From the NCBI RefSeq assembly GCF_003667545.1, contig NZ_RCUV01000013.1, positions 1-64,000 of the forward strand: a DNA stretch of 64,000 nucleotides. Direction: 5' to 3'. The notes under the pieces were generated by a model, which had not been told where the DNA came from, searched no databases, and saw nothing but the letters and a program-made list of their open reading frames with translations. The position numbers and the translations under genes are program-made. Numbering within the stretch: position 1 is the first letter of the stretch; each line of letters begins with the position of its first letter. The DNA is from Mycetocola manganoxydans (GTDB lineage Bacteria > Actinomycetota > Actinomycetes > Actinomycetales > Microbacteriaceae). Positions 6,836-44,782 of the stretch are shown here, piece after piece.

Positions 6836-6843
6836 GAGCGAAA

Positions 6844-8071: not shown

Positions 8072-8624
8072 GGACTGGGTCTATAACCTCGAACGGCTCC
8101 GGGAATTCCAAGAGGCGTACCGTCTTCCTGTTTCGGATATCGCACGCCAAGCACCCGCGCAGGCCCTCCACTCGCTCCGGGAGTCCGCGGCGAACGCTCC
8201 AGGCAACTACCGGCAGTATCTTGAAGAAGCCATCGATTGTTACGAGGCAAGTGCATATCGCGGGGCTGTACTCATGGTTTGGGCCGCAACGATCGAGCAT
8301 ATCTACTCGGTGATTGAGGGCCATCAATCCGGTTTCAAGCTCATCGAGGTTGAGAACTTCAAGAGGTTTGAGAAGTCCAACGGTTACCGAAAGATCAGTA
8401 AGAAGAACGACCTGCTTTACGTCAATGACAAGAACTTCTTCCTGATATGCGAAGACGCAGGCGTATTCAACAAGAATGCTCGAAGTATCTTGGACGATGC
8501 ACTGAACACCCGAAACCGGTGCGGCCACCCCACCGGCTACGCGGTCGGTCGCGAGGAGGTTGTGATCTTCATCGAACGCTTGATTAACAATTTCATCAGC
8601 GGCGCGATGATCGACTGGGACTAG
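8058..8624 (+). CDS. HEPN-domain protein, putative RNase
   Basis: 188 residues, all-helical. Arg152-Asn-Arg-Cys-Gly-His157 fits the HEPN catalytic motif R-x4-H, in its usual place before the last helix (EEVVIFIERLINNFI). An upstream helix (YEASAYRGAVLMVWAATIEHIYSVI, split here only by the linker at 84) matches helix 1-2 of HEPN proteins, which often carry the same aromatic and Glu-His residues. HEPN proteins with this motif are typically metal-independent RNases in toxin-antitoxin and phage-defence systems. It overlaps the DUF5343-like gene by 14 bases, suggesting a two-protein system. Activity is inferred from motif only. Confidence 0.68.
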   Translation: MTASEDWVYNLERLREFQEAYRLPVSDIARQAPAQALHSLRESAANAPGNYRQYLEEAIDCYEASAYRGAVLMVWAATIEHIYSVIEGHQSGFKLIEVENFKRFEKSNGYRKISKKNDLLYVNDKNFFLICEDAGVFNKNARSILDDALNTRNRCGHPTGYAVGREEVVIFIERLINNFISGAMIDWD

Positions 8625-11578: not shown

Positions 11579-11646
11579 TCGTCACAAGGACTGTCTAATC
11601 TCAGGACTTGCAGGTCGACCCGTTACAGCGGGTCGGCCTTTTTTTA
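11579..11646 (+). ncRNA. Candidate small RNA
   Basis: There is no reading frame here, yet a strong intrinsic terminator ends the segment and a -10-like TATAGT lies at 11567-11572. A weak -35-like TTCCGT is about 18 bases upstream. The predicted transcript of about 68 bases would run between convergent and divergent small genes. The terminator is clear; the promoter is weak, so the RNA itself is speculative. Confidence 0.3.
11613..11646 (+). terminator. Intrinsic terminator
   Basis: A 10-bp stem, GGTCGACCCG paired with CGGGTCGGCC (one G-U pair), with a 6-base loop TTACAG, is followed by seven T. It has the form of a strong rho-independent terminator on the plus strand, although no plus-strand gene precedes it. 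Confidence 0.8.
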
Positions 11647-11702
11647 TTTGTAGTTGTACACACTCGCTAATGCGCTTGCGACTAGCTATATGTGCTCGAC
11701 TT

Positions 11703-11873
11703 TCATTTCCCCCCAAGTTTTTTGGGGGGATTTTTGCGGACAGTAATTTGGCCCGAAGTATTGGCCTTCTTCACGATCTCGGCAGCGGTTCTCGTGCTCA
11801 CGGTGCGGCGAGCAGCTTGGCTCATAGGGGTGCCGATGGAGGATTGCTCAACTCGCGCTTTGAAACTCGTCAT
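11703..11873 (-). CDS. Small basic protein coupled to the sigma-like gene
   Basis: 56 residues, rich in Lys, Arg, Thr and Ala, ending KNPPKKLGGK. The ATG overlaps the sigma-like gene's stop as ATGA, and AAAAGGAGAA lies 7 bases upstream, so translation is very likely. No known motif; the region MSQAARRTVSTRTAAEIVKK is probably helical. Its final codons run through the G6/C6 hairpin at 11709-11729. Its tight coupling to the sigma-like gene suggests a partner or regulator role, which is inference. Confidence 0.62.
   Translation of the reverse strand: MTSFKARVEQSSIGTPMSQAARRTVSTRTAAEIVKKANTSGQITVRKNPPKKLGGK
11709..11735 (+). terminator. Hairpin with U-tract
   Basis: CCCCCCAA pairs with TTGGGGGG over a short T-rich loop, followed by ATTTTT on the plus strand. 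It overlaps the 3' end of the minus-strand 56-residue gene. It looks like a terminator for plus-strand transcripts, perhaps a second stop after the candidate small RNA. Confidence 0.5.
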
Positions 11874-12679
11874 GCCAGTTCTCCTTTTTGTCTCCGTTTT
11901 GAACGTTCGTAATGAAGCATCCGCTCAACAGCTTTCGGTGTCATCTCCAGGTGCTGGCCGATCTCTTCGTGAGTGTGCCCTGCGGCCGCCAGCACGTAGG
12001 CCTTTTTTGCTCGCGGGTCTTTGACCGCCTCCAGTGCACGATCGATCTCCGATTGGATGGTCACCGTGACCGCAACATCTTCGCCGTTGGCGAGCAGATC
12101 CTCGTCAAAGTTCTCGTCATCATTGATGCTCTCAGCTCGCATGCTGGCTTGGTCGTAAGTCTCGGTATGCCACTTGCGGTAGATGTTGGGGAACTGCATC
12201 AGACACTGGCCGATGAAGAAAGTCTTGATTGATGCGCCCTTCGAGGGATCCCACTTGCCTGGAATCAGTACTCTCTCGCGGAAGGCACGAAGTGAGATAG
12301 CGACCACTTCCCCTGCCAAAGACTCAGCGGTTTGGTGATCTCTCAGCGCGTCGTCTATGGGTTGCGGCAGGCCACCAAATGAGTACTTCTTCACTCGATC
12401 AAAGATGAGACCGCGCATGGTCCAACCTGTGAGCACCGCCAATCCATATTTCGCAAGCTCGGTGGCGTAGTAGTTCCAGTGGAGGCCTGAAAAATTCTGG
12501 GCACGGAGCTCCTCGACCAGCTGACGGTCGGTATCGAGCCGAGCCAGGTTCTCGGCCGGCGAAAGCTTCTCGAATTGAGTCAGCCATCCGGGTTCAGCCG
12601 GTGCTGCCTCCCCCTGTTCTACGGGCACGCTGGAAAACCCGACGCGCTGGGCGTCCTGGTTATTTCCAGCGGTATCCAT
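11870..12679 (-). CDS. Sigma-70-like RNA polymerase sigma factor
   Basis: 269 residues from ATG 12679 (GGGATCG upstream); a longer reading to 12760 has no ribosome-binding site. Residues 125-180 resemble region 2 (FRERVLIPGKWDPSKGASIKT leads into an IGQ/Y-R-K-W segment). The C-terminal region 4 helix-turn-helix is clear: AYVLAAAGHTHEEIGQHL followed by TPKAVERMLHYERSKRR. The long N-terminal part (1-110) is not typical of ECF sigma factors. It overlaps a 56-codon gene by ATGA. It may switch on the adjacent small basic genes or element functions; this is inference from position. Confidence 0.68.
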   Translation of the reverse strand: MDTAGNNQDAQRVGFSSVPVEQGEAAPAEPGWLTQFEKLSPAENLARLDTDRQLVEELRAQNFSGLHWNYYATELAKYGLAVLTGWTMRGLIFDRVKKYSFGGLPQPIDDALRDHQTAESLAGEVVAISLRAFRERVLIPGKWDPSKGASIKTFFIGQCLMQFPNIYRKWHTETYDQASMRAESINDDENFDEDLLANGEDVAVTVTIQSEIDRALEAVKDPRAKKAYVLAAAGHTHEEIGQHLEMTPKAVERMLHYERSKRRQKGELA

Positions 12680-13032
12680 CCGATCCCTTTCGGTTATTGA
12701 GGGGCTGCAGAACTTTGTTCGGCGTCCCGTCTTATGTGCCGGATTCTGATTTCCCCCCAACCTCGCTCAATTTCTGGTTGGGTTACAGCGCCTTCAACCC
12801 ATTGTGGCGTCCGCATCCGACACCTAGAGGATGCTGGAAGGCCGAATTTGATTGTGAGATCGGCGTAATCACGCCGATCACGGGTCATCCTCACAGGTGA
12901 TAAGAGTGCTTCGGCTCGATGGTGTCAGGACAGAATTACGACCACTACGGAACGTTGGCAATCAATACGTGGATGGAGCTGTATCCACAGGTCGAATTCG
13001 GTGGTGACAGACCCACTCTGATTCGTCCTGAG
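12680..13032. other. Intergenic region upstream of the sigma-like gene
   Basis: About 350 bases. A plus-strand frame starting at 12919 gives about 40 plausible residues (HYGTLAINTWMELYP) before running antisense into the nuclease gene, so it could be the remnant of a gene, but I cannot name it. Nothing else is convincing; the sigma-like gene's promoter should lie near the left end. Confidence 0.3.
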
Positions 13033-13611
13033 CTACGCCGCCGGCAGTGTGATCTCCTCTACGTCGAGCATCGCATCGACAAACGAATACTCAGGCGCGC
13101 CGTCGACGTTGAGCGCGATCTCAATCGCTTCAGCCATGGCAGCGAAGCTTAGGAGGGTCGCGCGCTCTGGGAGGTCGTACACGGTGCGCCAGGCGCGCTC
13201 GTTCTTGCGGATCACCTGGCTAGGAGCGACGACGATGATTGGCAGGCCACCGTGTGCCATATGCGCGAATTGGTAGAGCGTCTTCCCACATTGTTGCGGG
13301 CAGGACCTTCCGTGCGAGATCTGTGTTTTCTCTCCTTTGGTCTCAACGAAGCCGAGGGCGCGCCTGCTGGTCGTTGTGCATCCCGCGATATCGCCCTCAC
13401 CGTGACCACCCCGGCGCCAGAGGAGATGTAGTTCTGGATCGAGCTGGAACTGCTTCAACACGTAGCGCTGGAGGCTCGGCAGATAGGCGAGGGCGTTGTG
13501 GAGCACGGCCGTCGTGCGTGATTCCAGCTTCCCTCGAGGAGCAGCGTCGTACTTCCGAAGCGCGTTCGGGATCCGGTGCCAGGACTGGTCGCCCAGGAGG
13601 AGATTGCTCAT
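13033..13611 (-). CDS. Putative PD-(D/E)XK-type nuclease
   Basis: 192 residues from ATG 13611, which has AAAGGGAG eight bases upstream; the frame extends to 13695 but without a start signal. Asp74 in GEGDIAG and Glu90-Thr-Lys92 in LGFVETKGEKTQ have the spacing and strand context of a PD-(D/E)XK active site. The middle of the protein has a hydrophobic strand (LPIIVVAP) typical of the fold. There is no methyltransferase nearby, so a classic type II restriction enzyme is unlikely. Repair or defence nuclease are both possible. Confidence 0.5.
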   Translation of the reverse strand: MSNLLLGDQSWHRIPNALRKYDAAPRGKLESRTTAVLHNALAYLPSLQRYVLKQFQLDPELHLLWRRGGHGEGDIAGCTTTSRRALGFVETKGEKTQISHGRSCPQQCGKTLYQFAHMAHGGLPIIVVAPSQVIRKNERAWRTVYDLPERATLLSFAAMAEAIEIALNVDGAPEYSFVDAMLDVEEITLPAA

Positions 13612-13800
13612 CGGTGACTCCCTTTTCGAGGTGAGGCCGAGGCTACGCCGGACCTCCGACACCTGGCTGCGCAGCTGCCGACCAAGTTGCCGCATAGAAG
13701 AACTGCCGAGTCACCCGGAACCCTGATCAATCGCTCTCCAGCGGCGTATCAGAAAAGAGAAGGAACTCAGCAGTCCTCTGTAGCCGAACGAAAGAACCCA

Positions 13801-20668: not shown

Positions 20669-21910
20669 TCAGTCCTCGACGATGCGGGGATCGTATCCCG
20701 CCGCACGAAGAGTCTCCACGACGAGGTCGCGGTGCTCAGGCCCTCGTGTCTCGACGCTGAGTTCGAGTTCCACTTCTCCGATCTTGAGGCCGTGGCCGTG
20801 ACGGGTGTGGAGTACCTCGATGACGTTGGCGTTGGCCTGGGCGACGAGTTCTGCCGTGCGGGCCAGTTGTCCGGGACGGTCAGGCAGCGGGATACGGAGG
20901 GTGAGGTAGCGGTCGGATGCCGCGAGGCCGTGGCTGATCACGCGCTGCATCAGGAGTGGATCGATGTTGCCGCCGGAGAGGATGACCACCGTCGGGCCGC
21001 TCGGCTCGATTTCGCCAGCGAGGATCGCCGCGACGCCGACGGCGCCGGCCGGTTCGACAACGAGCTTCGCCCGTTCGAGCAGGACCAGCAGAGCCTTGGC
21101 GATGTCGTCCTCGGACACCGTGACGACGTCGTCGACGACGTCCCGGATGATTTCGAAGTTCAGGGTGCCGGGTTTGCCGACGGCTATTCCATCAGCGATG
21201 GTTGCCTGCACGGGAACCTCGGTCGCGATACCTGAGGCGAGCGAAGCCGGGTAGGCAGCGGCGTTCGCGGCCTGGACGCCGATCACCCGGATGGTGCGCC
21301 CAGCCGCGGCTGCACGCAGTTTCATGGCCGAAGCGACCCCGGCGATGAGGCCGCCACCGCCGATGGGAACGATGACCGTCTCAACGTCGGGAACGGCATC
21401 CCAGATCTCGAGTCCGAGGGTGCCCTGACCGACGATGACGTCTTCGTGATCGAACGGCGGAATGAAGATCGCACCCGTTTCTTCGGCGTACGCTGCGGCG
21501 GCAAGGAGCGGTTCGGCGACGGTGTGGCCGCGGAGCACCACCTGCGCGCCGTATGCCTTGGTCGCCTGCAGCTTGGGCAGGGGAACTCCGATGGGCATGA
21601 AGATCGTCGACGCGATCCCGAGTTCCCGTGCAGCGAAGGCCACTCCCTGTGCGTGGTTTCCTGCTGATGCGGCGACAACACCGCGCGCCCGTTCGGCGTC
21701 GGTGAGCTGAGCCATGCGGTTATACGCGCCGCGAATCTTGTATGACCCCGTCCGTTGCAGGTTCTCGCACTTGAGATAGACATCGGCGCCGAGGAGTTCT
21801 GCCAGGTAACGTGAGCTCTCGGTCGGGGTCTCCTGGGCGACTCGCGACACGACGGTCCGCGCCGTCTCGAACTGTTCCAGGGTGGGGCCCGAGGGCGCGG
21901 CATCAGTCAT
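20669..21910 (-). CDS. ilvA: Threonine ammonia-lyase with C-terminal ACT domain
   Basis: 413 residues from ATG 21910. A fold type II PLP enzyme: the PLP lysine is Lys58 in GSYKIRG, and the phosphate-binding glycine loop is GGGGLIAG near residue 185. The last 75 residues form one ACT domain (LTLRIPLPDRPGQLARTAEL), unlike the two ACT-like domains of E. coli IlvA; single-ACT versions are usual in Actinobacteria. It deaminates threonine to 2-oxobutanoate for isoleucine synthesis. It overlaps the upstream transporter gene by 8 bases. Confidence 0.9.
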   Translation of the reverse strand: MTDAAPSGPTLEQFETARTVVSRVAQETPTESSRYLAELLGADVYLKCENLQRTGSYKIRGAYNRMAQLTDAERARGVVAASAGNHAQGVAFAARELGIASTIFMPIGVPLPKLQATKAYGAQVVLRGHTVAEPLLAAAAYAEETGAIFIPPFDHEDVIVGQGTLGLEIWDAVPDVETVIVPIGGGGLIAGVASAMKLRAAAAGRTIRVIGVQAANAAAYPASLASGIATEVPVQATIADGIAVGKPGTLNFEIIRDVVDDVVTVSEDDIAKALLVLLERAKLVVEPAGAVGVAAILAGEIEPSGPTVVILSGGNIDPLLMQRVISHGLAASDRYLTLRIPLPDRPGQLARTAELVAQANANVIEVLHTRHGHGLKIGEVELELSVETRGPEHRDLVVETLRAAGYDPRIVED

Positions 21911-35072: not shown

Positions 35073-35603
35073 GTCCGCTCCTTTGCCTGGTGCGGCGAAA
35101 GTCTACGCCGGCGACCGCCCTCGCGTCAGTGGTCGCTCCTGCCTTCCGTACCCGTTCCGCGTTGGAGTGACGGTGACCGTTTGGCCGTCCACGAGGTCGT
35201 CATCTTCGGCTGCGCCGCGGTCGCGGCGGGCTGATCCACCGCCGGTACTCGAAGCGGTGACCCGCGGTTCATCGGTCCCCTCTGTCGGCTTCCCGGGCTG
35301 AAACCCGACATCCGGGACCGATGAACCGAAAAAAGTACCCCCGGTGGGACTCGAACCCTCCTGGTGGCCTCGGGACTACACCGCGGCCCGAGCCGACATG
35401 ATGATTTCAGCTATTTAGAGTCATCCCAAGCCACTCTGACCACGACGAATTCCCTCAGGTGTTGCCAAAATGTTGCCGCTTCTTCTCAACCAGCGGGCTT
35501 TGGGACGAACCCGCTACCCGTTGATCGCAGTGGCTCGACCCAAGAACGACCTACCGCAGCCAGTTCCCTGGTGACTCTCGCCGCCAGACTGGGGACGGGC
35601 GTA
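35073..35603. other. Left junction of the element, no gene
   Basis: About 530 bases without a supportable gene. It holds the methyltransferase promoter, a large inverted repeat (35265-35279 with 35314-35328, 15 bp perfect, around a nested 6-bp stem), the left attachment repeat, and about 245 bases of the element's left end. A 35365-35395 stretch rich in GGCC-type pairs is not a tRNA. Confidence 0.6.
35335..35358. mobile_element. attL core, 24-bp direct repeat
   Basis: The 24 bases beginning GTACCCCCGGTGGGAC are identical to 44709-44732, where they form the 3' end (acceptor strand and part of the T arm) of a tRNA gene. The bases on both sides differ. This is the duplicated attachment core made by integration into the tRNA; the chromosome lies to the left. 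Confidence 0.9.
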
Positions 35604-36098
35604 TTACCCGAGTACGGGACCGGCCGGCGGACCCGGGACGAAGAACGAATAGGAGTCGATGAGTTCGTGGTCGATGTGCACACGCCATTGGTATGCCTGG
35701 GACACTGCCAGCGGCAGCCCATTGCCAAAGTTCAGCACTACCTGATTGGCCGATTCGACGGCTCCTCGAGGTATGTTCACACCCGGGATCGCTGGCTCGC
35801 GGAACTCAATGTTCTGGGCGACACGCATAGCCTGCGGCTCCCCGGCAGGCGTAGGCAACTGAACAGGATCGCCTGACGCATCTGCGAGCACTAACTCGAA
35901 TGCCCCGGCAGTCTCCGCAACTGGCATTGGACATACAAGATGAACGACGACAGAAAATGGTGCCGTTGTACCCTGTTGCGGATCGAACCCAACGAACTGA
36001 AGTCCACCGCCAATGATGTTCACTTTGCCCGACTGATCAACGTTCGCGTAATCGGCCAGAACGATGTTTGCCCGGACCCGCTCAGACAGCGCGCTCAC
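35604..36098 (-). CDS. Hypothetical cargo protein (DUF6941-like)
   Basis: 164 residues. ANIVLADYANVDQSGKVNIIGGG at the start (a DUF6941-like beta-rich domain: the phrase ADxAxVxxxGKxxIIGGG recurs in that family as I recall) and FSVVVHLVCPMP near residue 48. No transmembrane segment. Function unknown. It is the last gene of a three-gene operon in which each start overlaps the previous stop (ATGA at 36095-36098). It sits in the satellite's cargo position, next to attL. Confidence 0.6.
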   Translation of the reverse strand: MSALSERVRANIVLADYANVDQSGKVNIIGGGLQFVGFDPQQGTTAPFSVVVHLVCPMPVAETAGAFELVLADASGDPVQLPTPAGEPQAMRVAQNIEFREPAIPGVNIPRGAVESANQVVLNFGNGLPLAVSQAYQWRVHIDHELIDSYSFFVPGPPAGPVLG

Positions 36099-36403
36099 TG
36101 AGGGATCAGTTGCTTACTAGGAGCGACGACGCCTGCCGACTTTCCCGCGGTGAATCGAGGAGTAGCTGACGAACACTGCAACGTGTACAGCCGTTGCTGC
36201 GGCTTAGGTTCCCATTCCACGTCGAAAAGAACCTTCCGCGACAGTGAGTCAACCTTCGCCACCACTGCCGAATACTTCCGCTCTTCCCCTGGATCCTGGA
36301 GAATCACCTTCTCGCCGACAGCCGCGTCAGGGAACCGGCGCAAAGCGCCGACTACACGGCCACCTTTGACGCGGGAGTTCAGGTCTACTTGCACAACTCT
36401 CAT
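36095..36403 (-). CDS. Hypothetical cargo protein
   Basis: 102 residues, beta-rich, starting MRVVQVDLNSRVKGGRVVG; it contains VGEKVILQDPGEERKYSAVVAKVD, which looks like a small SH3-like barrel (described by its ends, residues 29-52). No known family. It overlaps both neighbours by ATGA, so it is translated as part of the three-gene operon at 35604-36804. Confidence 0.62.
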   Translation of the reverse strand: MRVVQVDLNSRVKGGRVVGALRRFPDAAVGEKVILQDPGEERKYSAVVAKVDSLSRKVLFDVEWEPKPQQRLYTLQCSSATPRFTAGKSAGVVAPSKQLIPQ

Positions 36404-36804
36404 GATGCGATCCTATGGCTCCTGGCTGGATTCTCGATGGGAGCAGAGAATGCTTCCACAAAGGCGATGGATTGTGATTCTTGCACAGGCGACGTGAAAA
36501 GAACATGGTGGTGATGATCGGGCTGTCCATCGGACGTGTCCGGTTCGAGCCGAAATCCCGCCTTCGTCAGGGACGCTTCCGTCGCGACTTGCACCTTGCC
36601 GTGTGGAATCTTTGCTTCACCACAAATACGGCGCACAACGTCAGCAAAGAGCTCTCCGTTGAGCGGCTTGGCGGCAAAGACCGACAAGGCAGCCAGCCCC
36701 ATTTCTTCATTATCGAGGACCAACTCGTGGAGGACAGAGGGGTCGCGGAGGGAACCTCCTCGCACCACCACGAGTTCATCCGGCCCCATCGACTGCACGT
36801 GCAC
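36400..36804 (-). CDS. Hypothetical cargo protein
   Basis: 134 residues; starts are possible at ATG 36804 or 36789. Segments ELVVVRGGSLRDPSVLHELV and GLAALSVFAAKPLNGELFADVV suggest an alpha/beta fold, and a His-rich HHHHVLF lies near residue 98. The N-terminal MGPDELVVVRGG pattern recurs in small actinobacterial defence-island proteins I have seen but cannot name. It is the first gene of the three-gene operon and is divergent from the zinc-ribbon gene. Confidence 0.6.
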   Translation of the reverse strand: MHVQSMGPDELVVVRGGSLRDPSVLHELVLDNEEMGLAALSVFAAKPLNGELFADVVRRICGEAKIPHGKVQVATEASLTKAGFRLEPDTSDGQPDHHHHVLFTSPVQESQSIAFVEAFSAPIENPARSHRIAS

Positions 36805-36968
36805 AGGTTATCCGAGGTCGCCTTAGCCCAGCGCACCGAAACTCTGCGAGACGTTCGTTAACTCCGCACTTGGTGCCTAGAACTGGGGGTATCAGCTGCC
36901 TGACCAGAGAGAGTGTTGCTACTGGAAAGGGTCTGGCGCGTAATCCATCCCAGAGAGATACTTCTGCG

Positions 36969-37133
36969 ATGGAGAGTGACGACTCAGTTTCGTTGAACAC
37001 ACCGAACTGCCCCCATTGCCTCCAACGGCTCGAGATCGCGGGCACAGAGGAACACCCTTACTGGGTTTGTCCAGATTGTCGGGCGGCATACCTGGGGCCA
37101 CTCCAACACACACAAGGTTCTGGGGGCGATTAG
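36969..37133 (+). CDS. Small zinc-ribbon protein
   Basis: 54 residues from ATG 36969. A single zinc ribbon: NCPHCLQRL near residue 13 and VCPDCRAAYLG near 35, giving CxxC-x16-18-CxxC. A short tail follows. It could bind DNA, RNA or a protein partner. An in-frame extension to 36870 looks non-coding. It precedes the 326-residue gene by 49 bases and is probably co-transcribed. Confidence 0.55.
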   Translation: MESDDSVSLNTPNCPHCLQRLEIAGTEEHPYWVCPDCRAAYLGPLQHTQGSGGD

Positions 37134-37182
37134 CGCAGGGAGGCTCCCCAACTGGGGCTATCCGGCATCAGCCGATGGCCGG

Positions 37183-38163
37183 ATGATTGGTCGGATGGAA
37201 TTTCAGACCGACCCGCTCGAATCTTGGCATGACGCGCCCATTCGGTATCTCACTCAACAGCTAAAGGAACTCTCGTCCGGGGCGACATATGACGACGCTA
37301 ACGCCGTCATGGACGATGAGAGCGCGGTATACCTGCTGTGGTCGACTTTCGATAGAACCGATCGCTTACTCGAAGTAGTCGAGGAGCAACCTGAGGCAAT
37401 GAACTATGCGGTGGCGTTGCGCGACGCCCTCGAAGAATTCCCTGTTCTAGTCTCCGCTCGGCGGTCCGAAGAATTGCTGCACCTCGCGGAGCGCATGGAC
37501 TCCATTTGCCAACAGTGGATCGACATACTTCGGATCAGCCGAAAACACGATCCGGACGTAGAAGATCTTTTGCGATCGCTGAAGCAGGAGCATGTTCAGG
37601 CCCGAATAATGCGCGAGAACCGGAATCAACAGCGGTACGCAAACGAAGAGGCTCAGGCCAACCTTTTGGTGGCAAAGGAAGCAGCGCGCGAAGCACAAAA
37701 ATCGGCCGGCATCACGGGCTCTGCAAAATTCTCAGAGTATTTCGGGAACTATGCGGACTCTGAACTCCGGACAGCCAACTATTTCCGCCTGGCAACTATC
37801 GCAGTGATCATTGGCGCAATCACGATAGCGTTCACCCGGGCGCCTGAATCCACGGACAGCCTCACTACGCTCGCATATAGGCTCGCGGTGCTCGCTGGAG
37901 TAGCCGCATTGGGTACGTACCTCGGGCGTCAGGCAGGACACCACAGGCGGTTGGGAGCTTGGGCACGAGGGCTCGAGGTTCAGACGAAGTCGTTCCCTGC
38001 TTTCATGTCCCCGGTAACAGACGATGCCACCCGGAACACCATTTACGAAACGTTCTCGCGAAGAGTGCTGTCCGCTCCCCCGGAAGCGGCCAAGAGCGCT
38101 CAAACGGATGCAAACCCGATGCTGGAGTCGGTGGTGGCCGCACTGGTCAAACGCGGGGAATAG
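37183..38163 (+). CDS. Two-transmembrane hypothetical cargo protein
   Basis: 326 residues (ATG 37183 or 37195). The first 205 residues are helical and probably cytoplasmic, with a charged coiled-coil-like stretch at about 130-175 (RQR, EAQANLLVAKEAAREA). Two transmembrane helices follow at roughly 205-222 and 235-252 with a short loop, then a cytoplasmic tail. This resembles the plan of SLATT-like or other two-helix membrane effectors of anti-phage systems, but I see no diagnostic motif. It stands with the zinc-ribbon gene at the cargo end of the satellite. Confidence 0.6.
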   Translation: MIGRMEFQTDPLESWHDAPIRYLTQQLKELSSGATYDDANAVMDDESAVYLLWSTFDRTDRLLEVVEEQPEAMNYAVALRDALEEFPVLVSARRSEELLHLAERMDSICQQWIDILRISRKHDPDVEDLLRSLKQEHVQARIMRENRNQQRYANEEAQANLLVAKEAAREAQKSAGITGSAKFSEYFGNYADSELRTANYFRLATIAVIIGAITIAFTRAPESTDSLTTLAYRLAVLAGVAALGTYLGRQAGHHRRLGAWARGLEVQTKSFPAFMSPVTDDATRNTIYETFSRRVLSAPPEAAKSAQTDANPMLESVVAALVKRGE

Positions 38164-38166
38164 GCG

Positions 38167-38628
38167 CTACAACCGTGGTCGGGACTTTCGAGGCCTCTGA
38201 AACTTAGACACGTTCTCCCCAGCCGGTATCGCAGTGCCGCTAGTCGCGCTACGGATGCCTGCGCGCATCGAGCGAAGCTCATGCTGAAGGCGCACAGCAG
38301 GCGTCCCGCCCAATTCATGTAGAACTCGCAACAATGATGCCGAAGCGCGCGACTTCTTCTCGAGCAGCGACGTGTTACCAGGCACGGACAGCAGGTCGAC
38401 CTGGGCCGCGGTCAGACGCGCGAGCTCAACAGCCGCACCGTCCGAGGTAGTCAGCCACTTCATCGCAGCTAGCGATCTCTCCACAGCGTCCTGCATCGTC
38501 GTGACAGGCTCGCCGTGCCCATCAGACGCGTCAGCAGCGGCGGCTTCGCGCCCGGCAGCCTTCCGTGCCCTGTAGGCCCGGGAATACGCTCGCTGGCGGG
38601 CTTTCCGCTCATCATCCGAGACAGTCAC
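38167..38628 (-). CDS. Small terminase-like protein
   Basis: 153 residues from GTG 38628, chosen for its AGGAGG six bases upstream; the longer frame to 38655 lacks this. The N-terminus (ERKARQRAYSRAYRARKAAG) is a basic helix; the middle (AAMKWLTTSDGAAVELARLTAAQVDLL) and the C-terminal LLRVLHELGGTPAVRLQHELRS are typical of actinophage small terminase subunits, described here by their ends. It should recognise the packaging site and direct packaging with a helper's large subunit, which is absent here. It is downstream of the capsid gene. Confidence 0.65.
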   Translation of the reverse strand: MTVSDDERKARQRAYSRAYRARKAAGREAAAADASDGHGEPVTTMQDAVERSLAAMKWLTTSDGAAVELARLTAAQVDLLSVPGNTSLLEKKSRASASLLRVLHELGGTPAVRLQHELRSMRAGIRSATSGTAIPAGENVSKFQRPRKSRPRL

Positions 38629-38993
38629 AAAGACCTCCTGAATCTCACGTCTCACGCCTGTTTTCTAAGGAAAGAACTGGGTGGGGAAGTTCACTGCCGG
38701 TGGACTGGCCTGGCATCGGGTGCTGCAGAGATTTGTACGCCCCTACCCCTGCCCAGTGCCGGGAATCGTTCGCCGGACTGGAAGCCCGGTACGGGGGTGC
38801 ACCTCTATGGTTGGGGAGTGCTGGTGGCTTCACCCCTATTCCCCCGCCAGGGGTGAGGCCACCAGCCTTGTTGCTGAGATGCTGCAGGTCGGGTTCGAAA
38901 GGAAGAAAGTCCCCCGACCCGCAGCACCTGTCACGGGCTCTCTAATTCCCGTGCTACCGTGGCCCGCTCAAAGAAGAGCCACGGGTGAGTTTG
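38629..38993. other. Structured gap between capsid and terminase genes
   Basis: 365 bases with no gene but three hairpins in a row, listed separately. This is where a packaging (cos or pac) signal would be expected in a satellite or phage. No ribosome-binding site or plausible peptide is seen. Confidence 0.55.
38822..38985. repeat. Three tandem inverted repeats
   Basis: Stem 1: 38822-38836 with 38850-38864, 15 bp with one G-T, loop 13. Stem 2: GCTGCAGGTCGGG near 38881 with CCCGACCCGCAGC near 38928, 12 pairs with one mismatch. Stem 3: CCGTGGC with GCCACGG, about 38960-38985. They lie between the capsid and small-terminase genes, and could be packaging-site, RNA or terminator structures. Confidence 0.6.
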
Positions 38994-40196
38994 TTACGGC
39001 GTGAGGTTCACAGTGATGAAGGCGGACGGCTTGTTCACTGCGAAGCCGTAGCGTCCCTCGTGTCGGAACCGGACCTGGTTCTTCGTGAAGAGGATGCCGG
39101 ATCCATCGATGTCCAGGTGGTCGTCTTCTCGGACGATCAACTCTGTCTGGTTGAAGTCACCGAGCAGCGCGGTTCCCTGGGAGATCAGCGACGATGTCAC
39201 GATGGGGTATTCACCCAACACCTTCTCGATGTCAGAGCGTCCAGATCCGAAGAGCAGGGGCCCGGTCGTTCCTCCCTCACGCATGAGCTCGAGGGCCTGC
39301 AGGTCACGGGAGTTCATCACCCACGCATTCGGTGTGACGTTCGTGTCCGTGAGCGTGTAGCGGGCGTTGCTCAGCGTCTGCAGGACGCTTGCGACGTACA
39401 CCTGCGCGAGATGTCCCGATGTTTGCAGGATTCCCTTCACGGGGTCAGCTGTCGCCGTCGGTGCGCCGGTTCCGTTGAGTATGTCGGACTCGAGGGATTC
39501 TAGGAGACCCTCGCCCAGCTGTGCTTTTAGGATCTCGATGATCTGGGCATAGTCGTCGAGGAAACGCTTGGGCATGGGGTCTGTCACCGTTGCGTACACC
39601 CGGTAGCGGTCCTCCCGGTCCTCGAAGGTGATGTCCGACACCGGCTTCTCAGCTCCGTCCGGGACACCGCGGGCGTTGAGGCTTCGAGCGGTCTGCACCA
39701 GGTACGAGAACGTGTTCCCGATGTTGCCGTTGGGGTCGGCGGTCTGGGTACGAGGGCGACGCGGAATGAGATCCAGCAGTGATGTCGGCCGGCCCGAAAT
39801 CGTGACCGGCTCACTGACGACGGAAGGAATGTCGATCGATCCGCCGATGAGTGCCTTCGCGCCATGCTCGCCAGCCCGCTTCTCGAGTTCGCTGCGAACC
39901 TTCTCGCCCCACTGCTCGCTGGCCTTCACCAGCTGGGTGGATCTGTGGGACCCGCCCATGCCCAGGTCGAGCCCGATGTCGGCGAGTTTCTGCGCGATCT
40001 CTTCGGACTTTGCGAAGTTGGAAGTGGCCAGGGTCAGTTCGGCCTTCGCATCGGCATGCGCCCTAAGGTGAGTATTCGCGCGGTCGATCTCGCTCTGTGT
40101 TAGATCACGCCCTTCGGAATCGGCCTTCGTCGCAATCACGCGAGCAGCCTTTAGTTCCGTGGCCATACGGTCTTTGAGTTCGGCAGTAGTTGCCAT
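38994..40196 (-). CDS. HK97-type major capsid protein
   Basis: 400 residues. The N-terminal 100 residues are a helical scaffold-like (delta) region. The HK97 fold follows: SLLDLIPRRPRTQ near residue 150, NTFSYLVQTA, ITFEDREDRYRVYATVTDPMPKRFLDD (E-loop and spine area, here landmarks only), NAWVMNSRDLQAL, VLGEYPIVTS and RHEGRYGFAVNKPSAFITV at the end. A separate protease gene is missing, so maturation would need a helper or no cleavage. It supports capsid formation or remodelling by a satellite. Confidence 0.85.
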   Translation of the reverse strand: MATTAELKDRMATELKAARVIATKADSEGRDLTQSEIDRANTHLRAHADAKAELTLATSNFAKSEEIAQKLADIGLDLGMGGSHRSTQLVKASEQWGEKVRSELEKRAGEHGAKALIGGSIDIPSVVSEPVTISGRPTSLLDLIPRRPRTQTADPNGNIGNTFSYLVQTARSLNARGVPDGAEKPVSDITFEDREDRYRVYATVTDPMPKRFLDDYAQIIEILKAQLGEGLLESLESDILNGTGAPTATADPVKGILQTSGHLAQVYVASVLQTLSNARYTLTDTNVTPNAWVMNSRDLQALELMREGGTTGPLLFGSGRSDIEKVLGEYPIVTSSLISQGTALLGDFNQTELIVREDDHLDIDGSGILFTKNQVRFRHEGRYGFAVNKPSAFITVNLTP

Positions 40197-40456
40197 GATG
40201 TTTCCAATCAGGAAGGGCGCCGCTCAGAGGACGCCAAGAATGAATGATTGAAACGATCCGCGGGCTCATGTGGCCACCCAACTCAGAAACGCTGGGGACG
40301 GGTTCACCGCTGCTCGTTGCTGCCGATTCGCTCAGTTCGTCGACCTTCGCCCCGAGGGGTTCATCGGCCTTCACATCGCTACGGTTCAGATCCTCGATCT
40401 TGACCCGGACGGATTGGTTACCGCTGGGGTTCATCGATCTTGTCTTACCGTTCGAC
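40197..40456. other. Gap upstream of the capsid gene
   Basis: 260 bases. A minus-strand frame starting at 40434 gives about 60 plausible residues (starting MNPSGNQSVRVKIEDLN) but then overlaps the capsid start in another frame; it could be a remnant of a head gene such as a protease. I do not annotate it as a gene. Confidence 0.3.
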
Positions 40457-40729
40457 CTACCTCAATTCTACCTGCGATCCGGCTTTTTTAACAGCAAGTG
40501 CGGCAGCTAATCCTGCCGTCATCGCCCGCGCGGTTCCCATCGTCGCGATGCGTTCCTCGAGCTCGTCGATCGTCCAGGGAATGTCATTGTCGGCCATCCA
40601 CTGGATCTGCGCTTCACGGCGTAACCATGCCACCTCATCCCGGCTCGAGATAGCTCCGTCTTTCCGCAGGTGCTCCGGGCTGCGGCGTCGAGCAGCGTAC
40701 GGATCCCGGAATTCATGAATTTCCATCAT
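40457..40729 (-). CDS. Hypothetical satellite protein
   Basis: 90 residues, starting MMEIHEFRDPYAARRRSPEH. A helical, charged protein with WLRREAQIQWMADNDIPW in the middle and an Ala-rich C-terminal helix. No family recognised. It overlaps the upstream gene by 17 bases, in the structural-gene operon on the minus strand. Confidence 0.55.
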   Translation of the reverse strand: MMEIHEFRDPYAARRRSPEHLRKDGAISSRDEVAWLRREAQIQWMADNDIPWTIDELEERIATMGTARAMTAGLAAALAVKKAGSQVELR

Positions 40730-40991
40730 CAGGCTCCTGCTCGCTCTGAGCCGCGTACCGAGCCACCAGCAGCCGGAGAAGATGTGCGGCTTTGTCCGGC
40801 CCGTGCACGTCGATCAGGAGCCCCGCGAGATCCTCCGCCATCGACCGCAGCGCATTGATGGTCGACCCCATCCCGCCGAATCCATAGTCGTCGTCGAACG
40901 TCTGCTGAACAGCCGTCGCGAACATCTCCGCGTCACCAGTGACCTCCGCGGCGACCATTCGCGCCGCTCGAGCCCGATCAACGGGCCTCAT
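40713..40991 (-). CDS. Hypothetical satellite protein
   Basis: 92 residues from ATG 40991 (a GTG at 41012 is an alternative, overlapping the WhiB-like stop). Helical, with a Met-rich segment GGMGSTINALRSMAEDLAGLL and a C-terminal LLRLLVARYAAQSEQEPDD. No family recognised. It overlaps both neighbours, suggesting continuous translation of the operon. Confidence 0.5.
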   Translation of the reverse strand: MRPVDRARAARMVAAEVTGDAEMFATAVQQTFDDDYGFGGMGSTINALRSMAEDLAGLLIDVHGPDKAAHLLRLLVARYAAQSEQEPDDGNS

Positions 40992-41004
40992 TTGGTTCAG
41001 GGAC

Positions 41005-41484
41005 TCAACCACGACGAAGACCCCGAGCGGACTCAAACGGTGACCGGAAGAGAGCGCCCCACGTCTGCACCAAGTCCTCGTCGCGCTGCATCTCCATGCG
41101 ACGCGCGACCGGCTGCCACTCACGGTGCAACTCCTGCTCCAAACGTGCAGCCTGATTGTGCTGCGGTTCCGCTCGCCAGCGGCACTTATTCTTCCTGGGC
41201 ATTGCCTCTCCTTCCTTCTGCCGTCCGCCATACCGACGACCGGCCCACATCCCGGCAGCCGGCCGTGTAGCCGCTGCGTACGCTCTGCACACCTCGAACA
41301 CCGGGCATGCTTTGCAAATCTTTCGACAGGAAACCGCGTCCTCGTTCGCGAGGCTGTCTGCCGTGAACCTGTCATCACCACGACAGCTGGGCTCCCCGTC
41401 AAGAAGAGCGGTCACGAGATCATTTGCCGCCGCTCCCGCACGCGTCCCGGCCACATCACTCCTTCGCCATCGCTGATGATCCAA
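41005..41484 (-). CDS. WhiB-like iron-sulfur protein fused to a second segment
   Basis: 159 residues. The first 90 form a WhiB domain: Cys34, Cys57, Cys60 and Cys66 (C-x22-C-x2-C-x5-C) would bind a 4Fe-4S cluster, and GMWAGRRYG matches the family's G[VI]WGG turn. The remaining 65 residues (MPRKNKCRW onward) are of a different kind and are preceded, in frame, by a strong AAGGAAGGAGAGG site and ATG at 41202, so a second protein may be made internally. WhiB proteins modulate sigma-dependent transcription; phage-encoded versions are known in actinophages. Confidence 0.65.
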   Translation of the reverse strand: MDHQRWRRSDVAGTRAGAAANDLVTALLDGEPSCRGDDRFTADSLANEDAVSCRKICKACPVFEVCRAYAAATRPAAGMWAGRRYGGRQKEGEAMPRKNKCRWRAEPQHNQAARLEQELHREWQPVARRMEMQRDEDLVQTWGALFRSPFESARGLRRG

Positions 41485-41563
41485 ATATCGGTTGCGTCGG
41501 GTTTCGAAGAAATCCGACCTGGTCTAAGTGACTGGTCAACTCACTGGTCTTAACTGGTAGTGC

Positions 41564-41685
41564 GCAGAATCTGCCGGTTCATCATGCAGAATCTGCCGGT
41601 TCATCACGCAGAATCTGCCACTGGTGATGTCGAAATTTGCCGTTGATGCGTAGACAATCCGGCAGAATTTGCCGATGGTCAGTTC
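41564..41685. repeat. Iteron array, probable replication origin
   Basis: Three near-identical 22-bp units start at 41564, 41586 and 41608 (GCAGAATCTGCC followed by GGTTCATCA in the first two). A degenerate fourth lies at 41630, and another partial copy, GCAGAATTTGCC, at 41662. A 22-bp spacing equals two turns of DNA, as in iteron origins. They directly follow the stop of the replication-initiator-like gene. Confidence 0.75.
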
Positions 41686-42023
41686 CACCGCTTCCACTCT
41701 GGATCGGTCTCCCGGTAGCTGGCCGGCACGTTGAGCACGTACACGTTGCGCAGCCACCGGCCGCGACTCGACCGTCGCTTCTCCACGCTGAACAAGTGGA
41801 GGTTCTCCAACGCGCCGAGATGGTTCTGTACGGTACGAATGCTCTGACACGTCCAGTTCGCGATTGTCTGGTGCGACGGATATGCGAAGCCCTCCTCGGC
41901 GTTCTCGAACTCCGCAAGACATAGGAGGGTCAGCTTCTCGCCGGCCTTCATCGGACGCCACTCCCCGGACGCCTCTCTTATCTGCTGGGCCTCCCATGCC
42001 CAGTTTCTGGCTGAGATCGTCAC
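41679..42023 (-). CDS. Winged-helix replication initiator-like protein
   Basis: 114 residues. A helix-turn-helix is clear: KLTLLCLAEFENAEEGFAYPSHQTIANWTCQSIRTVQNHLGALENLHL (residues 30-77), the layout of N-terminal domains of phage or plasmid RepA-like proteins. SVEKRRSSRGRWLRNVYVLN forms the wing and strand. It lacks a primase or helicase domain, so it would only mark the origin and recruit host or helper proteins. Iterons overlap its 3' end. Confidence 0.68.
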   Translation of the reverse strand: MTISARNWAWEAQQIREASGEWRPMKAGEKLTLLCLAEFENAEEGFAYPSHQTIANWTCQSIRTVQNHLGALENLHLFSVEKRRSSRGRWLRNVYVLNVPASYRETDPEWKRWN

Positions 42024-42066
42024 GCACGTGCCCCCCTCCCCGCGACGTTGTCCTTCACTGCCGTGA

Positions 42067-42360
42067 TCACTGGGACCCCTCGAGGACGTTCAGAGCCTGA
42101 GCGCGTTCCCCAGCTGCCCTAAGCTGCTCGCATAGCTCAAACGCCTCCGCCACATCCAGCTCGGCATCACCCCGTAGGACCGGCACTACTTTCCACTGAT
42201 CGGTGTTCTCTCTCGAGAGAATCACGTGGCCGCCGTGAACTTCGATGCTGATTTCGACCAGCACGTTTCCTGGTCCAGCTGGCTCGTCAGTCAACAGTTG
42301 ACCAGCCACAGCGCCCTCGAAAAGGGCCGCGGAGTCGGGGGCGCTTGGTAACATGTTCAT
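42067..42360 (-). CDS. Hypothetical satellite protein
   Basis: 97 residues from ATG 42360, with GGAGGAGAAA upstream; the frame extends to 42525 without coding character. It is acidic and beta-rich: NVLVEISIEVHGGHVILSREN and QWKVVPVLRGDAELDVAEAF. No family recognised. Position suggests an early gene of the element. Confidence 0.55.
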   Translation of the reverse strand: MNMLPSAPDSAALFEGAVAGQLLTDEPAGPGNVLVEISIEVHGGHVILSRENTDQWKVVPVLRGDAELDVAEAFELCEQLRAAGERAQALNVLEGSQ

Positions 42361-42439
42361 GATCGTTTCTCCTCCTGCTTGGTTGAGGTTGCGGTTCTCG
42401 CCCTCGTCGCCCGTCCCGGCGCCGGGGGCATTTTTGTGC

Positions 42440-42622
42440 TCATTTCTTTGCCTCGCGGATTGCGATTCGCTGCAGACTCTGCTCGAGCGCCTTCGTAAGC
42501 GTCGGCAGGACGTCGAGCAGAGCATCAGCGCTCACGGGACCACGAAACCTGATGTGGACCGGTATGCGAGTGCTCCCGCATTCGATTGACAGGCGGGCCT
42601 CCCCGATCGGAACACCGACCAT
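42440..42622 (-). CDS. Hypothetical satellite protein
   Basis: 60 residues from ATG 42622, which overlaps the excisionase-like stop as TGATG, with GGAGG upstream. It reads as two strands (EARLSIECGSTRIPVHIRF) and a helix (DALLDVLPTLTKALEQSL). A longer start at 42670 is possible. No family recognised; coupled to the DNA-binding gene, it might be its partner. Confidence 0.52.
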   Translation of the reverse strand: MVGVPIGEARLSIECGSTRIPVHIRFRGPVSADALLDVLPTLTKALEQSLQRIAIREAKK

Positions 42623-42867
42623 CAGGAGGCCTCCGGCCCGGTAATACTTCGTTCGCTGGACTCGAGCCATGCAACGACATCCGACCGACGATAGACAACT
42701 GTTCGCGGAGTGGGCTTGAGAAATTTGGGGCCGCCTCTGCCCAGGTACCGAAGCTGGCCGAGAAGGCTGCGCGTCATACCGGGGACGAGCGCGCACACCT
42801 CGTCCGGGCTCAGATACTGCTCGGCATCCAGGGTCCCAACTGTCGATTGCCCTGCGGTCTCTTTCAT
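42622..42867 (-). CDS. Excisionase-like helix-turn-helix protein
   Basis: 81 residues from ATG 42867 (AAGGGA upstream). AEQYLSPDEVCALVPGMTRSLLGQLRYLGRGGPKFLK is an excisionase/MerR-type winged helix (landmarks at residues 15-50), followed by RTVVYRRSDVVAWLESSE, the conserved end of the HTH_17/Xis family. It probably bends DNA for element excision or represses the early promoter. It is divergent from the regulator at 42983. Confidence 0.68.
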   Translation of the reverse strand: MKETAGQSTVGTLDAEQYLSPDEVCALVPGMTRSLLGQLRYLGRGGPKFLKPTPRTVVYRRSDVVAWLESSERSITGPEAS

Positions 42868-42982
42868 GCGTATTCCCTTCATGAGCTATGTATGACCTTG
42901 CTGACTCAATGGAAACAGTTTGAGCCAGCTATGTCAAGGGCCAGTCATGACAAAGCTCGTGAAATGTGTCATCATTGGCGGC
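42868..42982. promoter_or_regulatory. Divergent control region of the satellite
   Basis: This 115-base gap separates the leftward excisionase/replication operon from the rightward regulator and integrase genes. It contains several TGTCA/TGACA half-sites (near 42932, 42945, 42966), an imperfect operator-like arrangement, and a minus-strand -35-like TTGACA at 42932-42937. Binding by one of the two flanking regulators is likely; no exact operator can be set. Confidence 0.45.
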
Positions 42983-43525
42983 ATGACAAATCCGTCCTCG
43001 ATCATCGCAGTGGGGTCCGAGACCGCAGACCTCCTTGGTGGCGAAGTTCGCATCCGCACGAATGCAAACGTGATGACAACAGGCGAACTCAACGATGGCG
43101 CGACTGTGGACATCGACATCGTGTACGACCCTGACCTGGGTCGCTACGTTGCGGAGTCAGTGAATGTGCGGCGAGGCGGCAACGGAACCGAAGTCACTGC
43201 TCGATTGATCCGAGAAGTCCGCGTGCAGGACGCGATCGTCTCGATTGCAATGAGCGATCTCATCGAGGTGCTTAGCAGCGATGAGGACGAGGACTACATC
43301 ACGGTTTCCTCCGGCCACGATTGGCTCGCCAAGGTCAAACCCGTGCGCGAGCGAAGTGCTTCCGATGACGCACTTAGAGATGCGGCCGTTATCTACACGA
43401 TCGCGCGTCTCGGGAACTGGCCACCCCTTGCGACAGTGGCAAAGCATCTCGGAGTCAGCCAAAGCACGGCGACCCGGCTAGTCGCCGACGCACGCGCACG
43501 AGGGCTCTTCTTCGATCATGGGTAG
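42983..43525 (+). CDS. Winged-helix regulator next to the integrase
   Basis: 180 residues from ATG 42983; in-frame starts at 42947 and 42920 are possible. Residues 1-110 are beta-rich with no known motif. The C-terminus (ATVAKHLGVSQSTATRLVADAR, residues about 150-171) is a helix-turn-helix of the winged-helix type, as in many actinophage-element proteins. Its stop overlaps the integrase start by 8 bases, so it and the integrase are coexpressed. Role as a repressor or directionality factor is inference. Confidence 0.6.
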   Translation: MTNPSSIIAVGSETADLLGGEVRIRTNANVMTTGELNDGATVDIDIVYDPDLGRYVAESVNVRRGGNGTEVTARLIREVRVQDAIVSIAMSDLIEVLSSDEDEDYITVSSGHDWLAKVKPVRERSASDDALRDAAVIYTIARLGNWPPLATVAKHLGVSQSTATRLVADARARGLFFDHG

Positions 43526-44669
43526 CGTCCAGGCTTACGAAACCGCGGCCGGAAAGCGGTGGCGCGTCCTCTACCGGCGCCCCGACCACCAGCAAACCCA
43601 GAAGCGCGGGTTCCCGAACAAGAAGGCCGCAGAGCTCTATCTGGCGTCAGTGGAGATCTCGAAAGCAAACGGCGAATACGTCGACCCTGCGGCCGCGCGA
43701 GCCGTCGTCGGGGATCTGGGTGTCGAATGGCTCGCCAGACAAACGCACCTGAAACCATCGGCGTTCCGCTCGCTCGACAGCGCCTGGCGGGTCCACGTCG
43801 AGCCGCGATGGGGCGCCACACCGATCGCAGCCATCATGCACACCGACGTGCAGAAATGGGTGTCAGAACTCGGCACAGGAACGAAGAACGAGAAGCCGAA
43901 GGGCTCAACCACCGTAAAGCGCTCCTACGGGGTACTCGCTGCAATCCTCGACGACGCGGTTCGGGATCGTCGACTCTCGAGCAACCCTGCCCGCGGGGTC
44001 AACCTGCCCCGCAAGACCTCGAAGAAACGTGTCTACCTCACGCACGCCCAGGTGCAGTTGCTCGCTGATTCTGCCGGCGTCCAGTCCACGCTCGTCCTGT
44101 TCCTCGCCTACACGGGTCTGCGGTGGGGTGAAGCAACCGGGATGAGGGTCCAGGACCTCGACGCGCTCAGACGGCGCGTGAGCGTCCACGAGAACGCTGT
44201 GAACGTCGGCGGTCGCATTGTGGTCGGCACCCCCAAGAGCCACGCCAGCCGGTCAGTGCCGTTTCCCGATTTTCTGTCCGAGCCCCTCGCCCGCCTCTGC
44301 GAGGGTAAAGAGCGCAGCGCGCTACTGTTCGGGAATGGCCGCGATCACCTGCGCTCCCCCGACGTGCGCGACGGCTGGTACGTGTCCGCGATCCGCAAGG
44401 CGCAGAGAATCGACCCCACGTTCCCGACGCTCACCCTGCACGACCTCCGCCACACGGCAGCATCCCTGGCCATCAGTGCCGGCGCAAACGTGAAAGCCGT
44501 GCAGAGGATGCTCGGACACGCATCCGCAGCCATGACACTTGACACCTACGCCGACCTGTTCGACGACGACCTCGACGCGGTTGCGACAGCACTGAATCAC
44601 GCTAAGGCGAACTCAACTGTTGCCAAAGTGTTGCCAATTCGACCCTCGAGCGCTGCCGAGAAAAGCTGA
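43518..44669 (+). CDS. int: Tyrosine integrase
   Basis: 383 residues. An N-terminal arm-binding domain (1-60, AP2-like), a core-binding SAM-like domain (about 65-160), then the catalytic domain with Arg202, Lys240, His308, Arg311, His334 and the nucleophile Tyr344 (HDLRHTAAS and LGHASAAMTLDTYADLF). It is complete, so the element may still excise. The gene ends 38 bases from the right attachment repeat and reads toward the tRNA gene, the usual place for an integrase. Confidence 0.93.
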   Translation: MGSVQAYETAAGKRWRVLYRRPDHQQTQKRGFPNKKAAELYLASVEISKANGEYVDPAAARAVVGDLGVEWLARQTHLKPSAFRSLDSAWRVHVEPRWGATPIAAIMHTDVQKWVSELGTGTKNEKPKGSTTVKRSYGVLAAILDDAVRDRRLSSNPARGVNLPRKTSKKRVYLTHAQVQLLADSAGVQSTLVLFLAYTGLRWGEATGMRVQDLDALRRRVSVHENAVNVGGRIVVGTPKSHASRSVPFPDFLSEPLARLCEGKERSALLFGNGRDHLRSPDVRDGWYVSAIRKAQRIDPTFPTLTLHDLRHTAASLAISAGANVKAVQRMLGHASAAMTLDTYADLFDDDLDAVATALNHAKANSTVAKVLPIRPSSAAEKS

Positions 44670-44706
44670 CTGCCGCATATTTGCTGACCTGTTGCACCGC
44701 TTGAAT

Positions 44707-44782
44707 TGGTACCCCCGGTGGGACTCGAACCCACACTGGAGCGATTTTAAGTCGCCTGTCTCTGCCATTGGACTACGGGGGC
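44707..44782 (-). tRNA. tRNA-Leu(UAA), short form, integration site
   Basis: A 73-base cloverleaf plus an encoded CCA: acceptor GCCCCCG paired with CGGGGGT (one G-U), anticodon stem GGCGA/TCGCT around CTTAAAA, and T arm GTGGG-TTCGAGT-CCCAC. The anticodon is UAA, a leucine codon reader, but the variable loop is only about five bases rather than the long arm expected of tRNA-Leu. Its 3' end is the element's right attachment core. Confidence 0.85.
44709..44732. mobile_element. attR core, 24-bp direct repeat
   Basis: Identical to 35335-35358. Here it forms the 3' end of the tRNA gene, so the tRNA is intact at this junction. The integrase gene lies immediately to its left, inside the element, which therefore spans about 9.4 kb. 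Confidence 0.92.

Follow-up and report, generated by a model that had tools for sequence, protein, structure and literature searches.

We describe a small mobile element in a window of 64,000 nucleotides from Mycetocola manganoxydans, family Microbacteriaceae (positions 1 to 64,000 of contig NZ_RCUV01000013.1, assembly GCF_003667545.1). It occupies positions 35335 to 44732, beside a tRNA-Leu(taa) gene. An earlier note, made from the sequence alone, had read it as a phage satellite of about 9.4 kb integrated in a tRNA gene, and the boundaries agree: a perfect 24-bp direct repeat (35335-35358 and 44709-44732) bounds an element of 9,374 bp, its right copy being the 3' end of the tRNA-Leu(taa) gene. 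These are the sole two copies in the window, where some 3e-9 extra copies would be expected by chance from base composition, and the GC-content is 60.3% in the element against 65.9% in each flank. Reading inward from the tRNA, there is a tyrosine integrase gene and, upstream of it on the same strand, a regulator-like gene; divergent from these come an excisionase-like gene, two small open reading frames (ORFs), a gene with an HTH_36 (helix-turn-helix) domain, iteron-like repeats and a WhiB-like gene; and these are followed by two more small ORFs, an HK97-type capsid gene, a terminase small subunit gene and a cargo segment that extends up to attL, the left attachment site. The cargo segment consists of a 326-aa gene on the opposite strand and a three-gene operon ending in a DUF6941 gene. 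The chosen ORFs make up 83% of the element. The features are as follows, from left to right, where L017 and L019 denote related loci in other genomes, the latter in Compostimonas.

35335-35358: attL core, a 24-bp copy of the tRNA-Leu 3' end (perfect repeat).
35460-35477, plus strand: arm-type-like site TGTTGCCAAAATGTTGCC, near the left end (motif matches against shuffles).
35604-36098, minus strand: cargo operon gene, DUF6941 (PF22091, 3.2e-6; 28 bits, barely above the cut-off of 27).
36095-36403, minus strand: cargo operon gene, 102 aa, no confident family.
36400-36804, minus strand: cargo operon gene, 134 aa, no confident family.
37183-38163, plus strand: cargo gene for a 326-aa protein with a two-transmembrane hairpin by eye, no significant family.
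38167-38655, minus strand: terminase small subunit (PF23931, 1.5e-16; 43% identity over 145 aa to the L019 counterpart).
38656-38993: gap of 338 bp from small terminase to capsid in which no gene was chosen (from the ORF layout); speculatively, a possible packaging site.
38994-40196, minus strand: HK97-fold major capsid protein, 400 aa, with an N-terminal helical delta-like domain (PF05065, TIGR01554, AlphaFold).
40457-40729, minus strand: small ORF, 90 aa, no confident family.
40713-40991, minus strand: small ORF upstream of the capsid gene (start by eye), with a weak likeness to the L017 gene in the same place (E 0.002, a single comparison over 25 columns).
41005-41484, minus strand: WhiB-like regulator (PF02467, 1.1e-7; phrog_9926, 1.6e-9).
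41564-41673: iteron-like repeats, four GCAGAAT[C/T]TGCC sites, three of them in a 22-bp register (motif search).
41679-42023, minus strand: replication-initiator-like HTH_36 protein, 114 aa (PF13730, 2.3e-8; phrog_1032, replication initiation, 1.3e-15).
42067-42372, minus strand: small ORF, about 100 aa (start by eye), resembling by eye the L019 gene at 6716-7345.
42440-42622, minus strand: small ORF, about 60 aa (start by eye).
42622-42882, minus strand: excisionase-like helix-turn-helix protein, 86 aa (HTH_17 weak, E 0.024; 56% identity over 62 aa to the L017 counterpart).
42920-43525, plus strand: regulator-like ORF, divergent from the excisionase-like gene, with a helix-turn-helix-like C-terminus by eye and no significant family match; the role is assigned by position only.
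43518-44669, plus strand: tyrosine integrase, 383 aa (family match; 66% identity to the counterpart in the Compostimonas element, which also lies at tRNA-Leu(taa)).
44618-44635, plus strand: arm-type-like site TGTTGCCAAAGTGTTGCC, near the right end (motif matches against shuffles).
44707-44782, minus strand: tRNA-Leu(taa), the target gene, left intact (ARAGORN, Rfam).
44709-44732: attR core, within the intact tRNA-Leu(taa) gene (perfect repeat).

The genes named in the earlier note (integrase, excisionase-like protein, regulator, replication-initiator-like protein with iterons, HK97 capsid and small terminase) are all present, the excisionase-like protein with a weak domain match and the regulator-like one with no family match; the WhiB-like gene and the four cargo genes come in addition to them. 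Just inside both ends lies a second repeat pair, TGTTGCCAAA(A/G)TGTTGCC, which has two matches in the window against a mean of 0.00 in 100 shuffles and is probably the arm-type site of the integrase; a motif of the same form occurs at both ends of one relative (L029). In the five congeners examined, a tRNA-Leu(taa) gene and the same dehydrogenase-like gene are no more than about 1 kb apart, and the methyltransferase-like and polymerase-like genes that flank the window element on its other side, or the polymerase-like gene alone, start 0.8-8 kb away (labels by eye). The capsid gene is absent from this chromosomal neighbourhood in all five, and from their genomes as a whole, so that the variation in the integration site anticipated by the earlier note is found: the tRNA-Leu(taa) locus is a variable site, and all five congeners lack the element there. 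Contigs C9, C16, C27 and C28 of this genome carry further copies of a palindromic repeat, some 60 bp long, that lies immediately outside attL (35265-35328) and is like an intergenic repeat of the repetitive extragenic palindrome type. A scan of promoters and terminators returned one promoter-like site against 2.0 expected, and 11 terminator-like sites against 6.5 expected.

No portal, large terminase, protease, connector or tail gene, nor any remnant of one, was found within the element by Pfam, PHROG, ORF or tblastn analysis, as the earlier note had supposed. When 11 structural proteins of Arthrobacter phage Chickaboom (tape measure partial) were compared with it by tblastn at E<=0.1, the capsid alone matched, with 29.5% identity. 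The longest open frame inside the element is not above 400 aa, and neither a portal nor a large terminase could easily fit there intact. The M. manganoxydans genome as a whole has no match to PF04860 (portal), PF03354 (large terminase), PF04586 (protease) or PF10145 (tape measure), although sensitivity is incomplete, PF03354 and PF04586 being found in 7 and 8, respectively, of 11 portal-linked loci considered below. The helper prophage that the earlier note proposed looking for did not, then, come to light in this genome; a resident helper of the HK97 type was rejected on these four families, and the part would have to be played by a phage that comes in or by some other type of helper.

The capsid is assigned both by family (PF05065, 9e-24; TIGR01554, 2.9e-19) and by fold. 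An AlphaFold model built on an eight-sequence alignment (mean predicted local distance difference test score 68, predicted template modelling score 0.60) retrieved the heads of phages D3 (E 5.8e-16) and HK97 (E 6.1e-13) and has an N-terminal helical domain resembling the delta domain. These heads outrank encapsulins in the fold search and the delta-like domain is present, on which grounds an encapsulin identity was rejected. A scan of viral contigs with the capsid alone found no relative, and with a capsid alignment nine distant loci. Separately, the 14-kb plasmid pWTY27 of Streptomyces sp. Y27, which bears traA/traB, has a lone HK97 capsid gene (L122, 10642-12102) with 28% identity to that of the window, and no other named virion gene appears in its listed annotation. 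Among phages, the small terminase has no match at E 0.01, and the replication-initiator-like protein matches six weak records, none actinobacterial by name. The integrase matches 1663 phage records, the top-ranked (48%) in Gordonia phage Finkle, so that it indicates no particular helper.

Relatives were sought by capsid. Of 299 genomes belonging to the family, 16 have a capsid relative, and of 396 belonging to the order, queried with a four-capsid profile (E<=1e-15), 18 do, our own genome counted in each. From these, 31 other genomes were taken on (14 from the family search and 17 from the order search), while G113, a 3.3-kb contig, was left out of the portal, protease, terminase and tree tests. 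A scan of genome contigs with one capsid alignment had no hits, and with a second it returned two named loci, both already among these relatives: Compostimonas suwonensis DSM 25625 and Homoserinimonas sp. OAct 916. In 11 of the 31, which are ordinary prophages, a match to portal family PF04860 is less than 3 kb away from that of the capsid; in the other 20 none is found there, and 16 of these have no match to it anywhere in the genome. The protease PF04586 adjoins the capsid in 8/11 portal-linked against 0/20 portal-less loci, and the large terminase PF03354 (E<=0.001) occurs within about 5 kb in 7/11 (five above the curated cut-off) against 0/20.

Direct repeats were looked for in every one of the 20 portal-less loci, over stretches no longer than 20 kb, and in ten of them a pair resembling attachment sites flanks the capsid. 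Nine of these pairs overlap tRNA genes (Glu, Ser, Leu(taa), Leu(caa), Met, His, Pro, Pro and Gly); the tenth, at L095, involves no tRNA and by eye resembles the 3' terminus of a coding gene. Together with the 9,374 bp of the window element, the spacings are 6,490, 8,047, 8,061, 8,440, 9,155, 9,374, 9,529, 9,562, 9,612, 9,656 and 11,818 bp, that is, 9.2-9.7 kb in 6 of the 11 bounded elements. In the largest, genes for an rve/Mu-C transposase and IstB stand side by side as an IS21-type pair over 2.3 kb; without this pair the element would measure about 9.5 kb, the span of the insertion being taken from its genes rather than its ends. Because the elements are alike in size while their contents differ, a fixed-size container is suggested, the size clustering being taken without a null model. 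The actinophages with the best capsid matches, among those listed, mostly have genomes of about 37-42 kb, and actinophage heads of that capacity have a triangulation number (T) of 7. If T=7 holds 37-42 kb, a head scaled by volume would take 10.4-11.8 kb at T=3 and 16-18 kb at T=4.

Three of the portal-less loci bounded by attachment sites (L028, L029 and L030; 6.5-9.6 kb) form a second group, with capsid frames of 277-292 aa that are too short for the N-terminal domain. Two further portal-less capsid loci have neighbours that possibly mark another integration hot spot: for L096 (14353-16029) a comM-type Mg-chelatase gene and for L097 (16067-17326) dprA.

The closest relatives share more than the capsid. 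L017, a 9.66-kb element at tRNA-Glu, has the same gene order as the window element, an arrangement that the earlier note had suggested seeking in relatives; its regulator is of XRE type by eye, identities are 44% for the integrase, 56% over 62 aa for the excisionase and 42-44% for the capsid, and its small terminase belongs to a different Pfam family (PF05119). L019, from C. suwonensis DSM 25625 (Microbacteriaceae), occupies the same tRNA-Leu(taa) as the window element, with 66% identity in the integrase and 43% in the small terminase. After its small terminase, and inside the 9.6 kb bounded by its attachment sites, L019 has an open frame for a 708-aa tape measure protein (11615-13741); no other tail gene was noticed in that element. 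A satellite that set its own tail length in this way would, if true, be unusual. Four of the 11 bounded elements have a small terminase above cut-off (the window's, L017, L019 and L110) and L101 has a weak one (E 0.041), the remaining bounded elements having been scanned in part. The trait common to these elements is a capsid without a portal; the small terminase is found only in some members.

Other contents vary. AAA_25, with or without Prim-Pol, is present in some relatives, and on the far side of the capsid L017 has an AbiD (Abi_2) gene at 7494-8372 and L018 a gene for a RelA/SpoT-domain protein at 7058-7759 with a PADLOC match to PDC-S33. By analogy, the four cargo genes of the window element may be undescribed anti-phage genes. 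The 326-aa cargo protein has no match among plasmids, and its PADLOC hit to Drt3b (E 0.003, 14 bits) was judged a chance match.

To place these capsids among those of phages, a maximum likelihood tree was made of 28 genome capsids (17 portal-less and 11 portal-linked) and eight from named phages, which came from the top-ranked of 255 matching records. The partial capsid match in G042 was left out of this and a second tree, and the short capsids of L028-L030 out of this one. Thirteen portal-less capsids, including the window's and spanning six family codes, fall on one side of a branch with support of 95/93 and all 23 others on the opposite side; no phage or portal-linked capsid is among the 13. 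Presence or absence of the portal requires three changes on this tree against a mean of about 12 in shuffles, none of 500 being as low. The separate capsid lineage argues for a long-lived lineage of satellites and against a recently decayed prophage. In the other tree, which was the first made and has 31 capsids with L028-L030 and no named phages, there are four label changes against 9.3 in shuffles, and L028-L030 form a third, long-branched portal-less group. One portal-less locus, L102 (9392-14627, in G450), has a capsid gene followed by a 1174-aa tape-measure frame, with a WhiB-like gene upstream by eye and no PF04860 in the genome; it may be a decayed prophage, because its capsid groups with phages.

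The element has analogues among described satellites. The nearest published layout is that of candidate phage-inducible chromosomal islands (PICIs) in Mycobacterium, which were defined by integration machinery plus a major capsid gene, related by their authors to phiRv1/phiRv2 and proposed to be satellites, some lying in tRNA genes and some carrying terminase and replication genes (PMC10654092). Both defining components are present in the window element, although it comes from a different bacterial order, packaging is putative in both cases and the likeness is one of layout. Capsid-forming PICIs (cf-PICIs) encode a protease, portal, connectors and both terminase subunits, and have small heads (PMC10690885, PMC12409344). 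Like them, the element has its own major capsid and small terminase, but it has no portal, protease or large terminase of its own and so falls outside the cf-PICI definition. Staphylococcus aureus pathogenicity islands (SaPIs) resize the shell of the helper with CpmAB, Ccm or Rcm, and some redirect the helper's packaging through their own small terminase (PMC10690885, PMC12409344). The element resembles SaPI-type PICIs in being small and integrated, but unlike SaPIs it has a whole capsid gene, and no primase was seen in it, only the 114-aa HTH_36 protein and its iterons. SaPI-type PICIs have a divergent regulator and excisionase-side genes beside the integrase, and a primase/replication gene; the divergent layout is seen here too (42622-42882 on the minus strand and 42920-43525 on the plus strand, the latter a regulator by position). 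The Streptomyces phage satellites MulchRoom and MiniFlayer (14.8 and 17.4 kb) have full packaging and capsid genes and helpers thought to be virulent (PMC10690885). These too are actinobacterial satellites with a capsid gene of their own, a likeness by description. As for the resemblance to phiRv2-type elements drawn in the earlier note, it holds for layout alone: phiRv2 carries a prohead protease, and none was found in the window element. By the general criteria for phage satellites, this is a discrete mobile element with its own integration genes, and it has capsid and packaging genes without a full virion set. On gene content it is best filed as a variant satellite that would bring only a shell and a small terminase.

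Our essential contention is that the element is an integrated phage satellite that would make its own shell and DNA-recognition subunit and borrow the portal, protease, large terminase and tail of an incoming helper, for which we estimate a probability of roughly 0.65; its packaging and its dependence on a helper we infer from gene content. The occurrence of relatives of similar size suggests that this form of element is maintained and is not the ruin of a virus. In the mechanism we propose, infection by a tailed phage would cause the element to excise and replicate. Satellite capsid protein would then assemble around the portal of the helper into a small shell, perhaps of T=3, to be matured by the helper's protease, and the satellite small terminase would steer the helper's large terminase to satellite DNA, after which the filled head would take a helper tail. 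Genes between the small terminase and attL would be cargo, the same slot carrying anti-phage-type genes in two relatives.

Several observations weigh against this reading. The helper must, judging by the host's own sequence, come from outside or be of another type, and no phage with a close capsid was found, all 255 matching records being below 60% identity and the top-ranked at 29%. In 10 of the 20 portal-less loci there is no flanking repeat pair within 20 kb, and the absence of the portal from relatives is that of one Pfam family, among ORFs that were partly assigned. The small terminase lies on the other side of the capsid in L110 and is not among the ORFs scanned in L018 (seven) and L098 (nine), while PF23931 has matches in 2 of 21 genomes, the window's own and that of L019. 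The part of the tree that holds the phages also includes four portal-less capsids (L020, L102, L104 and L110), and some of these loci may be decayed prophages. The first tree supports the same 13 capsids at 85/75 only, and phage sampling in the other was biased, the phages having been picked from the best matches to the window capsid.

The alternative that survives best, although we consider it unlikely, is that the capsid is a weapon, which co-assembles with the helper's capsid or binds its portal and thereby spoils helper heads, satellite DNA travelling in full-size helper heads by means of its own small terminase or not being transferred in virions at all. The lack of a portal, protease or large terminase from the element would fit this, as would the divergence of the capsid from known phage capsids; however, the capsid is kept whole, delta-like domain included, the portal-less capsids of the lineage span six family codes, the small terminase adjoins the capsid, and sizes clustered near 9.5 kb suggest a size-limited container.

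A decayed prophage that has kept an integrase, small terminase and capsid by chance is more improbable still. Such decay would be in keeping with the 11 capsid relatives out of 31 in ordinary prophage contexts, with the four portal-less capsids that group with phages and with the lack of a small terminase in some relatives scanned, but the element has no remnants of the missing genes, its frames and attachment repeats are intact, L017 repeats its gene order at a different tRNA, sizes are similar at different tRNA genes and the capsid lineage is separate, in line with the preference of the earlier note for a satellite. We give no better odds to a satellite that spreads mainly by other means, such as generalised transduction or natural uptake, with the capsid a relic of the lineage's ancestor, since capsid frames conserved in several families are unexpected of a relic, even if the lone capsid on pWTY27 demonstrates that such genes exist outside phages.

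In other parts of the window, a tRNA-Ser(cga) gene lies at 21349-21440, and between 3000 and 16000 the GC-content falls to 55-63% per kb, below most of the rest, which suggests a second foreign region.

Returning to the satellite that brings its own shell and borrows the remainder, we can extend it to the lineage only tentatively, the wider scheme seeming to us somewhat less probable than its negation. An old and separate capsid lineage would have evolved small heads (about T=3, holding 9-10 kb) on the portals of unrelated helpers; the shell, and often the DNA-recognition subunit, would be owned, while portal, motor, protease and tail are rented, and some members would add a tape measure, such as the 708-aa protein of Compostimonas, that sets the tail length. 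If this is true, bringing only a shell and a small terminase would be a third strategy among phage satellites, and these elements would put to the test how readily, and at what size, the portal of another phage can serve for building an HK97 shell. Compostimonas suwonensis DSM 25625 and Homoserinimonas sp. OAct 916 make this reading testable.

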